Shown here: piece by piece, positions 6,554 to 32,302 of the stretch
Layout of the letters: every line of letters starts with the position of its first letter
How positions within the stretch are numbered: the stretch's first letter is position 1
Assembly: GCA_003221515.1 (NCBI GenBank)
Contig: QHSI01000126.1
Coordinates: 1-35,048 of the forward strand
Source: Candidatus Rokuibacteriota bacterium
GTDB lineage: Bacteria > Methylomirabilota > Methylomirabilia > Rokubacteriales > CSP1-6
Direction of reading: 5' to 3'
Length of the DNA: 35,048 nt
Notes under the pieces: model-generated
Databases searched by the model: none
What the model was told of the DNA's origin: nothing
The model's input: the letters and a program-made list of their open reading frames with translations, nothing else
Translations under genes and position numbers: made by a program

Positions 6554-8890
6554 ATGACGGACCACGGCGGCGCGCTCGAAGGAGTAGTCGTCATCGAGGT
6601 GGCGCAGACCCTGGCGGGTGAGCTCGCCGGCGGGCTGCTCGCCGACCTCGGCGCGACCGTCATCAAGATCGAGCCCCCCGAGGGATCGCCGCTACGCAAG
6701 CGCGGTCCCGCGATCGCCGGCGAAGACTCGCTGTACTTCCAGTCGGAGAACCGCGGCAAGCTCTCGGTGGTCGCCGAGCCTCGTGATTTCGCCCGCGAGC
6801 CGTGGCTCAAGCGTCTGCTCGCCACCGCCGACGCGCTCGTCGAAGACCACGGGCCCGGGCATCTCGAATCACTCGACCTCTCGCCCGATGCGCTCCACGC
6901 GAGCAATCCGAGTCTGGCGCTGCTGCGCATCTCGCCGTTCGGCCAGACCGGGCCGCTAGCGGGCGAGCGTGGCGACGACCGGATCGCCCAGGCGTTCTCC
7001 GGCATGCAGTTCACGACGGGCTTTCCCGATCGTCCGCCACTGCCGGTCACGGTGCCCCTGGCCGAGGCATGGTCGGCCGTGCTCAGCGCCGCGACGCTCT
7101 TGATGACGGTGTTTCACGCCCGGCGGAGCGGCCACGGCCAGGTCGTCGACATCGGCCTCTATCAGACCGCGCTCCGCATGCAGGAAGAAGTGATCATCCG
7201 CCATCACCGCACCGGCGCCGTCGCGACACGCCTCGGCACCGAGTCGCCCACCGTGGTCCCGGCCAACGTCTACCGGACGCGCGACGGCGGGTTCGTCGCC
7301 GTCTCCGGCGCCGGGGACCAGCCGTTCGCCCGACTCTGCGAGGCGATCGAGACGCCCGATGCGCCGAAGGATCCGCGGTTCGCGACCTCGGCCGCACGGC
7401 TACAACATCGCGCCGCGGCGGACGAGCTCGTCGCCACCTGGATCGCCGCGCACGACCTCGCCGACGTCGAAGCGCGCTTCGCCGCGGCCGGGGTGGCCGG
7501 CACCGCGGTGCGCTCGGTCGACGAGATCATCGCGGACCCCCACGTCCAGGCACGGAGGTCGCTCTTCCCGCTCCAGTCGGCGTCCGGACAGGAGTTCGTC
7601 GCGCCGGCCGCGGTCCCGAAGCTCACCCGCACTCCCGCCCGCGACCCACTGCGCGCGCCGCGGCTCGGCGAGCACACCGTCGACGTTCGCGCGGCGGTCG
7701 GGCTGCTCGCGGTTCGGAGACTGCTCACGGCGACCTCGAGAAACGACGTCGAGGCGACGGGTCCGCTCGACGGCATTCGCGTCCTCGATCTCTCGCAGTG
7801 GCTCGCGGGTCCGGCCGCCGCGGCGCTGCTCGGTGATTTCGGCGCCGACGTGATCATGGTCGAGCTACCCGCGAGCGGCGCGGCGCCGTCCGATGGCCCC
7901 GGTAGTCGTGGTCCAGGCTTCCCCGTGACCAACCGGAACAAGCGCAGCATCACGCTCGACGTGCGCGCCGCCGAGGGTCGCGAGACGTTCCTCGAGCTCG
8001 TGAAGCTGAGCGATGTGGTCGTGGAGAACTTCCGGCCGGGGACGCTCGAGCGCTGGAATCTCGGCCCCGAAACGCTTCATGCCGTCAATCCGCGGCTCGT
8101 GTTGCTGCGATCGTCGGGCTTCGGCCAGACCGGGCCGTATGCGTCGCGCGCGGCCTTCAACCCGGTCGGGCTCGCGTTCGGCGGGATGACGTACCTCAAC
8201 GGCTGGCCCGACCGGCCGCCGCTGCGCGACGGCGTGACGGCCGGCGATTACACGAACGCGCTCTTCAACGTGCTCGGAGTCGTCGCCGCCCTGCTGCGCC
8301 GCGATCTCGACGACCTGGGACAGGTCGTCGACACCGCCATGTTCGAGTGCGCGCTGCGGCTGACGGGCGATGCGCTGGCGGTCCGCAGCGCGCTGGGTCT
8401 TCGGCGCGAGCGCGCCGGCGGGGACTCGCCACTCTATCCCGCGAGCTTCACGGTCGAGGCGGTGGATGGGCGCTTCGTCGCCGCGTCGAGTGAGCGCTGG
8501 GAGGATTTCGGCGACGCGCTCGAGCGGCTGGGACGGTCGCGCGCGAGCGATCCGGCGCGCGTGCGCGAGGAAATCGCGAAGATCGCTGGGGCGCTGGACG
8601 CCGACGAGGCCGTGCGCGCCTTGCGCGGCGCCGGGCTCGCCGCGAGCGCGGTCAACTCGGTCGCCGACCTGGTGCGCGAGCCGCATCTGTGGAGCCGCGG
8701 CGACCTCGTGCGGTGCTCGTCGCCGGAGCTGGGCGAGATCGTGACGCAGGGGATCGTGCCCCGGCTCTCGCGCACGCCCGGGCAGCTGGCCGGCTGGTCG
8801 CCGCGACCGGGCTCCGACAACGAGGCCGTGCTCGGCACCCTGCTCGGCTACACGCCGGAGCGGATCCGCCGCGTCACTTCTTCAGCTTGA
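6554..8890 (+). CDS. fused two-domain CaiB/BaiF (class III) CoA-transferase
   Basis: A 778-residue protein built of two complete class III CoA-transferase modules in tandem. Each begins with the same signature: LEGVVVIEVAQTLAGELAG near residue 10 and LDGIRVLDLSQWLAGPAA near 405. Each continues with a GADVI/GATVIKIE-type strand and a GFGQTGP-type motif. In formyl-CoA transferase the catalytic Asp169 lies in the segment VAMQDAVL. The equivalent position here is Gln204 in module 1 (DIGLYQTAL) and Glu598 in module 2 (DTAMFECAL). Only the second half therefore has an acidic residue there, and the first may be a structural or binding partner. It would move CoA between acyl-CoA and a carboxylate. 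An ATG at 6542 with an AAGGA sequence is an alternative start. The 3' end overlaps the convergent solute-binding-protein gene by 17 nt. Confidence 0.9.
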   Translation: MTDHGGALEGVVVIEVAQTLAGELAGGLLADLGATVIKIEPPEGSPLRKRGPAIAGEDSLYFQSENRGKLSVVAEPRDFAREPWLKRLLATADALVEDHGPGHLESLDLSPDALHASNPSLALLRISPFGQTGPLAGERGDDRIAQAFSGMQFTTGFPDRPPLPVTVPLAEAWSAVLSAATLLMTVFHARRSGHGQVVDIGLYQTALRMQEEVIIRHHRTGAVATRLGTESPTVVPANVYRTRDGGFVAVSGAGDQPFARLCEAIETPDAPKDPRFATSAARLQHRAAADELVATWIAAHDLADVEARFAAAGVAGTAVRSVDEIIADPHVQARRSLFPLQSASGQEFVAPAAVPKLTRTPARDPLRAPRLGEHTVDVRAAVGLLAVRRLLTATSRNDVEATGPLDGIRVLDLSQWLAGPAAAALLGDFGADVIMVELPASGAAPSDGPGSRGPGFPVTNRNKRSITLDVRAAEGRETFLELVKLSDVVVENFRPGTLERWNLGPETLHAVNPRLVLLRSSGFGQTGPYASRAAFNPVGLAFGGMTYLNGWPDRPPLRDGVTAGDYTNALFNVLGVVAALLRRDLDDLGQVVDTAMFECALRLTGDALAVRSALGLRRERAGGDSPLYPASFTVEAVDGRFVAASSERWEDFGDALERLGRSRASDPARVREEIAKIAGALDADEAVRALRGAGLAASAVNSVADLVREPHLWSRGDLVRCSSPELGEIVTQGIVPRLSRTPGQLAGWSPRPGSDNEAVLGTLLGYTPERIRRVTSSA

Positions 8891-20194: not shown

Positions 20195-20223
20195 TTGACT
20201 CCGCCGCCGAGGAGCGCAATCCT
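20195..20223 (+). promoter_or_regulatory. weak candidate promoter of the amidohydrolase gene
   Basis: TTGACT (20195-20200) is five of six to consensus, but with a 17-nt spacer the downstream hexamer is only AATCCT (20218-20223). A transcript from here would start about 25 nt before the structured element at 20246 and include it whole. Confidence 0.25.
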
Positions 20224-20245
20224 CTTCTAACCGCTGGGACAGACA

Positions 20246-20317
20246 GTGTGCGCCGCAAGCCGTCGCGGGGCTGGGGCCCCGCCGGCTGAGGCGCAGCTAC
20301 CAATGAGGAGACAGACC
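20246..20317 (+). promoter_or_regulatory. structured 5' leader element, copy 1 (covarying hairpin plus ribosome-binding site)
   Basis: A long three-part stem: TGCGCC (20249-20254) pairs with GGCGCA (20290-20295); AGCCG (20258-20262) with CGGCT (20283-20287); GCGGGGC (20265-20271) with GCCCCGC (20276-20282). A TGGG loop closes it, and there are internal loops GCA/GA and a 2-nt bulge TC. A second copy at 31607-31653 has the same fold with compensatory changes. The ribosome-binding site (GAGGAG) follows the stem and the ATG lies 23 nt after its last base, the same distance in both copies. It looks like a cis-acting RNA structure in the leader; the ligand or regulator is unknown. Confidence 0.6.
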
Positions 20318-21436
20318 ATGGCGCGCGCGTACAACGTCATCGACGCCGACGGACACATCCTCGAGCCGGTCGACATCTGGGAGAAGTACATCGACCCCGC
20401 CTATCGCGAGCGCGCGCCTCGGATGATCGTCGACACCGACGGCAAGGAGCGGCTCCTCGTCGAAGGCAAGATCCTGGGCAGCCCGAAAGGGCTCGGTCTC
20501 ATCGGCGGGATCGGCGCCCGTCAGGGCACGGTCGACGACGTCACGATGAAGTACGTCGAAGGGCGTCCGGGCGGCTTCGACCCGCACGCGCGAATCCCGG
20601 ATATGGACCTCGACGGCATCGACGCCGCGTTCCTCTACCCGAGCCTCGGCCTGTTCAGCGGCGCGGTGCAGGATCCCGGCCTGGCCGCGGCGATGTGCCG
20701 GGCCTACAACCGCTGGCTCGCCGACTACTGCAAGCCCTACCCCGACCGGCTCTTCGGCGTCGCGATGCTGCCGATGCAATCGATCCCGCTCGCCATCGAC
20801 GAGATGCGCTTCGCGCGCAAAGAGCTCGGCATGCGCGGCGGCTTCCTGCGCCCCAACCCGTACAACAACCGCATGCTCCACCATCCGGACTACACGCCGT
20901 TCTGGAAGGAGGTCGAGGAGCTCGACTTCTCCATCGGCCTGCACGAGGGCGCCAGCGGCGGCATGCCCCAGGTGGGCGTCGATCGCTTCCAGAACCGCGG
21001 CGCGCGGCACATCATCTCCCACACGATGGAGATGATGCTGGCGGCGATGAGCGTGATCTGGGAGGGCGTGTGCGACCGCCATCCGAAGGTGCGCATCGGC
21101 TTCCTCGAGTCGGGCGGCGGATGGATCGCGCCGTGGCTCGACCGGATGGACCGCCACTTCGACGATCAGGGCTTCAACGATTCCGGGCTCACGATGCGGC
21201 CGAGCGAGCTGTTCCGGCGCAACTGCTGGATCTCGTTCGAGCCGGTCGAGGGCAGCCTCTCGGTCCTCGCCGACTACATCGGCCCGCACAAGATCCTGTG
21301 GGCCACCGACTATCCGCACCCGGACGGCTTCTTCCCGGGCGCGCCGAAGCTCATCGCCGACCGGCCCGAGCTGTCGGCCGAGACGAAGCGCCAGATCCTG
21401 GCCGGCGGCGCCAAAGGCTTCTACGGCCTGAGCTAG
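20318..21436 (+). CDS. amidohydrolase family 2 (metal-dependent TIM-barrel hydrolase/decarboxylase)
   Basis: A 372-residue amidohydrolase-2 protein (the ACMSD/gamma-resorcylate decarboxylase superfamily branch). Metal-site landmarks are IDADGHILEP (Asp9, Asp11, His13), LHEG with a His in the middle strand, RHIISHTMEM, and the late ATDYPHPDGF with its Asp. Such enzymes hydrolyse or decarboxylate aromatic or cyclic carboxylates; the exact substrate is open. The start chosen is the ATG at 20318, preceded by GAGGAG. The frame stays open 24 codons further upstream, but that stretch is the hairpin element, which is better explained as RNA. It is followed by two G-rich repeats and an AhpD-like gene. 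Confidence 0.92.
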   Translation: MARAYNVIDADGHILEPVDIWEKYIDPAYRERAPRMIVDTDGKERLLVEGKILGSPKGLGLIGGIGARQGTVDDVTMKYVEGRPGGFDPHARIPDMDLDGIDAAFLYPSLGLFSGAVQDPGLAAAMCRAYNRWLADYCKPYPDRLFGVAMLPMQSIPLAIDEMRFARKELGMRGGFLRPNPYNNRMLHHPDYTPFWKEVEELDFSIGLHEGASGGMPQVGVDRFQNRGARHIISHTMEMMLAAMSVIWEGVCDRHPKVRIGFLESGGGWIAPWLDRMDRHFDDQGFNDSGLTMRPSELFRRNCWISFEPVEGSLSVLADYIGPHKILWATDYPHPDGFFPGAPKLIADRPELSAETKRQILAGGAKGFYGLS

Positions 21437-30493: not shown

Positions 30494-31549
30494 ATGGGAC
30501 AGATCCTTGGGCTGGGTATCACCCACTATCCCCCGATGTCGTACAAGGGCAACATGTCGGGCCGGATCAAAATGTTGCTGGCGGACCCGATGCTGCCCGA
30601 GAAGCTGCGGTCGCCGGAGGGCTGGCATCCGACGATGCGCGAGCAGTGGAGCACCGACGAAGGCCTGGCCCACTCCGAGCGGCACCGCAGCGACCTGATC
30701 CATCACTTCCGGAAGATTCGCGCCGAGCTCGACGCCTTCGAGCCCGACTTCGTGCTGCTGTGGGGCGACGACCAGTACGAGAACTACCGTGAGGACTGCG
30801 TGCCGCCGTTCTCGGTGCTGGCCTACGACTCGGTCGACGTCCAGCCGTGGAAGGGGCATCGCGGCGAGAACTGGTGGGACGAGGCCAAGGACAAGACGTT
30901 CACGATCACGGGCCATCGCGCCGGCGCCAAGTATCTCGCCTCGGCCCTGCTCGACGACGGGATCGACCTCGCGTACGCCTACAAGCCCCTGCACCACCCG
31001 CTCGGCCACGCGTTCGTGAACTCGGTCCTGTACCTGGATATGGATCGCAAGGGGTTCGCCTACCCGGTGGTGCCATTCACCGTGAACTCGTACGGGCGCT
31101 GGCTGGTCGGCGCCCACGGCGCGCCGATGACGCCCTCGCAGGCCGCGAAGCTCGCGGGCCAGACCGAGCTCGATCCGCCCGGGCCGCAGCCGTGGCGCTG
31201 CTTCCAGGTCGGCGCGGCGGTGGCGCGCGCGCTCACCCGCAGTCCGTGGCGCGTGGCGGTGATCGCGTCGTCGAGCTGGAGCCACTCGTTCCTGGTCGGC
31301 AAGCACGCGCTGATGTTCCCGGACGTCGAGTCGGACAAGCGCTACTATGAGGCGCTGCGCGACGGCGACTGGGAGACGTGGCGCAACACGAAGATCGAGG
31401 AGGCCGAGGACCGCGGCCACCACGAGCTGCTGAACTGGTTCTGCCTCGCCGGCGCGATGGCGGAACTCCGGCGCAAGCCTGACGAGTCCGTGTTCCTGGA
31501 GTCGTGGATCACGAACTCCGACAAGGTCTTTGCCGTGTTCAGACCCTAG
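30494..31549 (+). CDS. LigB-superfamily (class III extradiol dioxygenase-like) protein, second paralogue
   Basis: A 351-residue paralogue of the protein encoded at 27774, colinear along its whole length. It keeps His11 (GLGITHYPP), His264 (SSSWSH) and Glu311 (HELLNW), and again has Gln94 within WGDDQYENY where LigB has its second iron-binding His. The identical replacement in both copies argues that it is a fixed feature of this subfamily. The paralogues differ in the loop around residues 200-235, where substrate specificity might lie. An AGGAGGA ribosome-binding site precedes the ATG, 31 nt after the cupin stop. Expected role: oxidative cleavage or a related oxygen-dependent step on an aromatic acid; not proven. 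Confidence 0.87.
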   Translation: MGQILGLGITHYPPMSYKGNMSGRIKMLLADPMLPEKLRSPEGWHPTMREQWSTDEGLAHSERHRSDLIHHFRKIRAELDAFEPDFVLLWGDDQYENYREDCVPPFSVLAYDSVDVQPWKGHRGENWWDEAKDKTFTITGHRAGAKYLASALLDDGIDLAYAYKPLHHPLGHAFVNSVLYLDMDRKGFAYPVVPFTVNSYGRWLVGAHGAPMTPSQAAKLAGQTELDPPGPQPWRCFQVGAAVARALTRSPWRVAVIASSSWSHSFLVGKHALMFPDVESDKRYYEALRDGDWETWRNTKIEEAEDRGHHELLNWFCLAGAMAELRRKPDESVFLESWITNSDKVFAVFRP

Positions 31550-31570: not shown

Positions 31571-31603
31571 CGCCGTCTCGAGGGCGGTAGCCATAACAAA
31601 GTA

Positions 31604-31675
31604 GTGCGCGCCGCAGGCCGTCGTGGGGCTGGGGCCCCGCCGGCCGAGGCGCGGCTACAAAATGAGGAGGCGCTC
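31604..31675 (+). promoter_or_regulatory. structured 5' leader element, copy 2 (covarying hairpin plus ribosome-binding site)
   Basis: The same fold as 20246-20317: CGCGCC (31607-31612) / GGCGCG (31648-31653), GGCCG (31616-31620) / CGGCC (31641-31645), GTGGGGC (31623-31629) / GCCCCGC (31634-31640) and loop TGGG. Compared with copy 1, a T-A pair has become C-G and an A-T pair has become G-C, each by changes on both sides, and one C-G pair has become a T-G wobble. Here too the stem is followed by GAGGAG and the ATG 23 nt after its last base. Confidence 0.6.
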
Positions 31676-32302
31676 ATGATCTACGAGGTTCGCACCTACT
31701 CACTGCGCACCGGGGCCGTGGCCGAGTTCGAGGACCGCTTCGCCAAGCGCAAGGCGCTGCGCGAGAAGCACTCCAAGCTCGGCGCCTTCTGGCACACCGA
31801 TTTCGGCCCGCTCAACCAGGTGATTCACGTGTGGCCCTACGAAGACCTGGCGCAGCGCACCAAGGTGCGCGACGCCATGGCCAAGGACGCCGAGCTCAAC
31901 GCGCTGCCGGGCGGGCGCGATCTGATCGTCGAGCAGCAGTCCGACATCATGATCCCCGCGCCGTTCATGCAGCCGCTGGGCAGCCGCAACTTCGGCGCCG
32001 GCAACTTCTACGAGATGCGGATCTACACCTACTCGCCGGGCGATCTCCCGAAGGTGCTCGAGGCGTGGGGCAAGGCCGTGCCGGGGCGCGAGAAGCTCTC
32101 CCCGCTGGCCGCCTGCTTCACCAGCGAGATCGGCGGCCTCAACAAGTTCGTGCACGTGTGGGTCTACAAGGACTCCAACGAGCGGAATCGCATCCGCGAG
32201 GAATCCCGCAAGGGTGGCCAGTGGCCGCCGCAGTCCGGCGTGCGACCGGTCCGCCAGGAAAACAAGCTGCTCATCCCGGCGTCGTTCTCGCCCCTGCAGT
32301 AG
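31676..32302 (+). CDS. NIPSNAP family protein (two ferredoxin-like domains)
   Basis: A 208-residue protein with two NIPSNAP-type dimeric alpha/beta-barrel repeats. The first begins MIYEVRTYSLRTGAVAEFEDRF with LNQVIHVWPYEDLAQR. The second begins FYEMRIYTYSPGDLPKVLEAW with LNKFVHVWVYKDSNERNRIR. The biochemical role of bacterial NIPSNAP proteins is not established; many lie beside catabolic or monooxygenase genes. The start is the ATG at 31676, which has AGGAGG upstream. The frame remains open 24 codons further into the hairpin element, as for the amidohydrolase gene, but that is best seen as a leader RNA. A long inverted repeat follows at 32320. Confidence 0.9.
   Translation: MIYEVRTYSLRTGAVAEFEDRFAKRKALREKHSKLGAFWHTDFGPLNQVIHVWPYEDLAQRTKVRDAMAKDAELNALPGGRDLIVEQQSDIMIPAPFMQPLGSRNFGAGNFYEMRIYTYSPGDLPKVLEAWGKAVPGREKLSPLAACFTSEIGGLNKFVHVWVYKDSNERNRIREESRKGGQWPPQSGVRPVRQENKLLIPASFSPLQ

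Follow-up and report, generated by a model that had tools for sequence, protein, structure and literature searches.

The window, which is the whole 35,048-nt stretch of Candidatus Rokuibacteriota DNA that was analysed, holds two copies of a hairpin, each closely followed by a gene, and the question raised by this locus is whether the hairpins regulate these genes or have merely come to lie in front of them. The first-pass annotation favoured a cis-regulatory RNA leader, with a dispersed REP-like repeat as its main alternative. Its description of the letters was reproduced in full when the sequence was re-read. Both stem-loops are 47 nt long (Table 1), and three pairs differ from copy 1 to copy 2 (T20249-A20295 to C-G, A20258-T20287 to G-C, and C20266-G20281 to a T-G wobble), while both have the loop TGGG, the internal loop GCA/GA, a downstream GAGGAG, and 23 nt between the hairpin end and the ATG. 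That description was made from two copies; the large dispersed family to which they belong is visible only genome-wide. With the family in view, we consider it likely that the hairpin belongs to the short interspersed palindromic repeats, and that this repeat of Rokubacteria is probably a mobile element of the non-autonomous kind, tolerated at gene junctions and in leaders. The observed basis is the copy number, the structure, presence or absence between close relatives, and the placement bias.

Table 1. Coordinates of the two repeat copies and adjoining features in the window
Feature	Positions	Strand	Basis or remark
Likely promoter of the amidohydrolase gene, 5' of the repeat	20195..20223	+	TTGACT, 17-nt spacer, AATCCT; consensus-like
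Repeat copy 1: G-Y-N, 54-nt core (20246-20299) and 3' extension (YRAA in the family)	20243..20303	+	84.7 bits, covariance model
Covarying hairpin, copy 1: lower stem, GCA/GA internal loop, middle stem, UC bulge, upper stem, UGGG loop	20249..20295	+	Covariation
Ribosome-binding site (GAGGAG) of the amidohydrolase gene; belongs to the host, outside the repeat	20305..20310	+	
Downstream gene of copy 1: amidohydrolase (PF04909)	20318..21436	+	
Upstream gene of copy 2 (LigB domain, PF02900)	30494..31549	+	Tight junction with the NIPSNAP gene in repeat-free relatives
Repeat copy 2 (54-nt core 31604-31657)	31601..31661	+	89 bits; empty at the orthologous junction in G002, L272 and L273
Covarying hairpin, copy 2	31607..31653	+	Covariation
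GAGGAG, ribosome-binding site of the NIPSNAP gene	31664..31669	+	
Downstream gene of copy 2: NIPSNAP-family protein (PF07978)	31676..32302	+	

The amidohydrolase is 97% identical in several Candidatus Rokubacteria metagenome-assembled genomes, and the source genome is one of this kind. Judged from its sequence, the TTGACT/AATCCT element is likely the promoter of this gene, and it is kept in the orthologs L070, L071, and L072, the last two of which are without the repeat. A native GGAG-type ribosome-binding site is likewise kept at sites both with and without the repeat; the repeat-free NIPSNAP ortholog in the related genome G002 has AAGGAGGAG where the window has GAGGAG. Positions 20246-20317 and 31604-31675 are open and in frame from a GTG into the respective gene, and automatic annotation could wrongly add 24 residues to the proteins.

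In the source genome (G000, 5.1 Mb), blastn listed 50 copies, and a covariance model built from 55 copies (R1) found 133 at an E value of 1e-3 or below, a recurrence that greatly exceeds chance. The repeat is about 54-66 nt long and is met as single copies or as arrays whose unit measures about 63 nt. To place the copies relative to genes, 1.24 Mb of this genome was read as 101 stretches chosen around copies, with genes called by a codon-usage caller; this portion contained 115 sites, 11 of which were tandem arrays. The repeat is present in 44 of 59 sampled members of the order and in all nine members of the genus, which carry 28-86 copies each even with strict filters. It is patchy elsewhere in the family, and G025, from one other family of the order, also carries it; non-carriers in the order include G010, G016, G017, G055, G068, and G072. 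Outside the order, blastn found no copy in the 13 genomes sampled from the class. Neither viral contigs, searched for exact matches to the source-genome consensus stretch, nor plasmids, searched with copy 1 by blastn, gave a match. A literature search returned nothing relevant on Rokubacteria repeats. Rfam 15 gave no gathering match, and at E values up to 10 only one chance match of 5.6 bits.

The structure proved to be real, as had been claimed from the two copies, and the covariation holds in larger sets. Among 55 copies from the source genome, 24 double-changed cells were counted compared to 4.1 after shuffling and no more than 5 in slid controls, and five pairs had both sides changed. Among 62 copies from several Rokubacteria genera, the count rose to 57, compared to 8.6 after shuffling and no more than 4 in slid controls; in the upper helix, 98.1% of cells are paired, and compensatory changes were observed in 7 of its 12 pairs. 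Columns 15-40 take the states A-U, C-G, G-C, G-U, and U-A, and columns 21-36 take C-G, G-C, U-A, U-G, and A-U. Beyond the genus, the lower stem is less strictly kept, with GCGAGCC/GGCGAGC in place of two pairs. Because pairing is kept by compensatory changes across genera, the folded single strand is deduced to be constrained in the propagating lineage, be it as RNA or as DNA, which covariation does not separate.

The variation among copies bears on where this constraint may act. Of the states found in one copy only among 98 gapless copies, pairing was kept by 5 (3 single and 2 double changes) and broken by the others (26 single-sided and 1 double), whereas the departures over all copies included 37 compensatory doubles. 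This suggests that the structure is important in spreading, and not at the individual sites where copies have settled. It falls short of proof, since rare states are biased towards broken ones and since, over all copies, single-sided changes kept pairing in 60 of 135 cases compared to 28% expected at random, mostly through recurrent G-U variants.

The placement of the copies is far from random. Gaps between co-directional genes hold 46 of the 115 sites in sense and 17 in antisense; a further 31 sites are flanked by divergent genes and 9 by convergent ones, and 12 fall within called genes. Of the 103 intergenic copies, 77 point at a downstream gene. The 3' end falls 14-23 nt before a same-strand start at 42 sites, compared to 8.0 expected when position and orientation are randomised within those gaps (maximum of 19 in 2,000 trials) and 7 in the mirror orientation. 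Where a junction holds the element in sense, the stop codon of the gene before it often lies no more than 20 nt away. The leader position reported in the first-pass annotation is a real statistical preference. The distance to the ATG, equal in the two window copies, varies by a few nucleotides across copies. It is the spacing of the native ribosome-binding site of the host gene, which the element abuts at a preferred insertion point. Most repeats of such a kind avoid the front of genes, unlike this one, which prefers it.

The sense leader bias and the 14-23-nt spacing, together with the strong RNA-compatible covariation and the location of copy 1 between the putative promoter and the ribosome-binding site, are what would be expected of a cis-regulatory RNA, i.e., a leader hairpin governing the translation or stability of a downstream regulon as a riboswitch or protein-binding site. 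The likeness to such leaders extends to a structured 5' leader near the ribosome-binding site, but the Rokubacteria repeat is dispersed, turns over rapidly, and has neither a regulon nor an Rfam 15 match. The search by covariance model with downstream genes recorded, which had been suggested as a check, did return a large family, but the genes behind it are unrelated: twenty downstream proteins are for the most part of different kinds, among them dehydrogenases, transport proteins, RNase J, TsaD, and a Rieske oxygenase, and they form no functionally coherent, conserved set. The existence of antisense, convergent, and intragenic copies also speaks against this explanation, as does the excess among one-copy states of single-sided breaks over the three single-sided changes that keep pairing.

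Comparison with close relatives shows rapid gain and loss of copies at orthologous genes. At 18 sites in G002 with an ortholog in the G000 stretches, 7 copies were shared and 11 sites were empty in G000, with flanks mostly 87-96% identical; the shared fraction is biased upward by the choice of G000 stretches around copies, and two or three of the 11 empty sites (L360, L375, and L387) are weaker as their flanks align poorly. Not every site allows a gain to be told from a loss. The NIPSNAP copy is missing from the 97%-identical ortholog in G002, which reads TAG, 27 nt, AAGGAGGAGACGCTC, ATG, and the corresponding junction in L272 and L273 is tight and without the element. Of the amidohydrolase orthologs read, G000 and G002 (L070) alone have the element in the leader. 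Two shared copies, one of them the core of copy 1, are identical at 54 of 54 positions between G000 and G002, where the flanks are 92-97% identical, and this could reflect retained function at some sites. Because copies come and go and the downstream genes are unrelated, the hairpin is concluded to be a genomic repeat, apparently mobile, and not a riboswitch-like element; with most sites testable in the sister genome empty, the cis-regulatory leader put forward at first is considered very unlikely.

A further alternative is a general-purpose mRNA hairpin of mobile origin that has been domesticated to insulate the ribosome-binding site or to protect the mRNA, without sensing. It is compatible with the mobile-repeat explanation, and would fit the 46:17 orientation bias between co-directional genes and the placement between stop codon and ribosome-binding site, with L395 and L034 among the clean junctions of this type. 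The predicted fold of copy 1, in which the hairpin forms a separate domain, is also consistent with it. In the same predicted fold, however, GAGGAG pairs with an upstream CUCUUC, and insulation is not evident. The high turnover and the pair-breaking nature of the rare one-copy changes are further points against it, and target choice together with purifying selection could explain the orientation bias. Domestication of this kind is regarded as possible but doubtful.

Outside the genus, the repeat is placed differently. The start codon is often supplied by the 3' end of the element (CTATGA or CGATGA): of 88 copies from other genera, 32 have an ATG there, and 38 have a stop codon shifted by one base from that position. 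In-frame starts are concentrated at -12 and -6, and the stops of upstream genes lie mainly at -1, 2, 5, and 8, which is one frame. Flanking direct repeats exceed chance (z of 6.0), partly owing to arrays, and duplications occur around ATGA. In the source genome, no convincing target-site duplication and no flanking direct repeat were observed, and a 9-nt target-site duplication, prompted by the 63-nt tandem period, was unsupported there. The NAD kinase gene overlaps its upstream gene at a GTGA, free of the element, in nearly all relatives shown, and this junction is filled in G019, G020, and G070, where the 3' end of the element bears GTGA or ATGA and, in G019 and G020, its 5' side keeps a GTGA as well. 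Members of two genera are thus filled at the same GTGA (L327-L329), through an old insertion that they have in common or through a hot spot.

These positions recall the MIRUs, short mycobacterial repeats located at start codons, overlapping start and stop, with an in-frame peptide ORF (PMC12548453). By this description the Rokubacteria repeat is similar in being short and apparently mobile and, in other Rokubacteria genera, in its location at ATGA or GTGA overlaps of stop and start. It differs in the window's genus, where it lies 5' of the ribosome-binding site and follows no frame rule. MIRUs are not known to have dyad symmetry, whereas the Rokubacteria repeat has a covarying hairpin. A coupled mini-ORF of the MIRU type, in which an in-frame peptide joins the upstream stop to the downstream start, would explain the frame-restricted starts and stops of the other genera, but copies in the window's genus show no frame preference and 26 of 127 are off in length by a non-multiple of 3. 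The internal frame is frequent but in many copies interrupted, and the excess at third positions is modest, with pairing as a confounder. In addition, G012 carries antisense copies at the start codons of opposite-strand genes, inside longer repeats ending in GTCAT; because these also sit at start codons, it seems to be site choice and not reading frame that matters. The mini-ORF is considered unlikely. A conserved N-terminal peptide, against which the first-pass annotation had rightly argued, was rejected on similar grounds: the source genome shows no frame preference, indels break the frame, and the variation is driven by structure.

Several composite forms were also observed. In G012 (L288, L303, L305, L306, and L172), a repeat of about 130 nt consists of the hairpin and a second conserved segment beginning GCGGGGTCCGCGAGGCCGGCG, often with TCAT, the ATGA of the other strand, at both ends. 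At L225 (reverse strand, about 8412-8520), L261, L264, L161, L153, and L397-L401, a second element is nested in the apical loop of another; since the inner and outer boundaries recur, the composite has probably been amplified itself. In G025 (L147, L159, L165, L407, L408, and L413) and in L173 and L409-L412, the hairpin lies within two larger mosaic repeats that carry further hairpins (CGTATGCCGCATACG and GGGGGGGTCTCGGAAGACCCCCCC). The possibility that half-elements flank a larger autonomous transposon was discarded, as the orphan halves examined were diverged copies, chance matches, or nested copies.

The REP-like repeat named as the alternative at the outset is the better class, but true REPs come with a RAYT and the targeting here is unusual. 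The similarity to REP/BIME elements includes the short imperfect hairpin with conserved asymmetric bulges, GYN-G...CTA ends, about 100 copies per genome, intergenic location, and tandem, mosaic, and nested forms. When a GTAG/GGAG tetranucleotide was sought in the 5' flank, a G was found at -3 in 93%, followed by mostly Y, any base, and GTG. Enterobacterial REPs are mostly 3' of genes, whereas the Rokubacteria repeat is strongly biased 5' of start codons and in sense. Moreover, the Y1 transposase (Y1_Tnp, RAYT) that would move a classical REP/BIME was found in none of the nine genus genomes, nor in the carriers G009, G011, G012, G013, G015, and G025. Loss of the RAYT in assembly gaps of all carrier genomes examined is unlikely, and a classical RAYT-moved element is held to be highly improbable. 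Since the genus has no RAYT and Rfam no match, the repeat is neither a REP sensu stricto nor a known RNA family; it is a new family, with unusual targeting, within the known class of short interspersed palindromic repeats.

For this mobile repeat, we propose that the propagating form would be held to its specific asymmetric hairpin by compensatory changes and that new copies would arise by transposition-like insertion, the folded single strand (DNA or RNA) being recognised by a host or trans-acting enzyme. A trans-acting mobiliser probably exists. In its own genus, the element settles preferentially just 5' of the downstream ribosome-binding site and, in related genera, often at stop/start overlaps (ATGA or GTGA). 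The upstream stop and the downstream start would be left intact, such that a transcribed hairpin could be tolerated. Effects of a transcribed hairpin on host genes are possible and would be mostly neutral or incidental. We tentatively extend this to a minimal mobile element that moves without a RAYT, is recognised in its folded form, is targeted to translation-initiation junctions, and spreads without gene inactivation, a reading that we regard as possible though not probable.

These results indicate that covariation and a fixed ATG distance are not proof of a riboswitch, since selection on a repeat for propagation can yield both. The family, absent from Rfam, numbers up to about 150 copies in a single genome and belongs to a soil phylum that is uncultured and little known. 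If the targeting of start junctions stems from the insertion mechanism, it would point to an unknown mobilising system. The RAYT-free reading, if true, would describe a class of minimal mobile element not described before, and one that would shuffle a standard 5' hairpin onto many mRNAs through operons and leaders.
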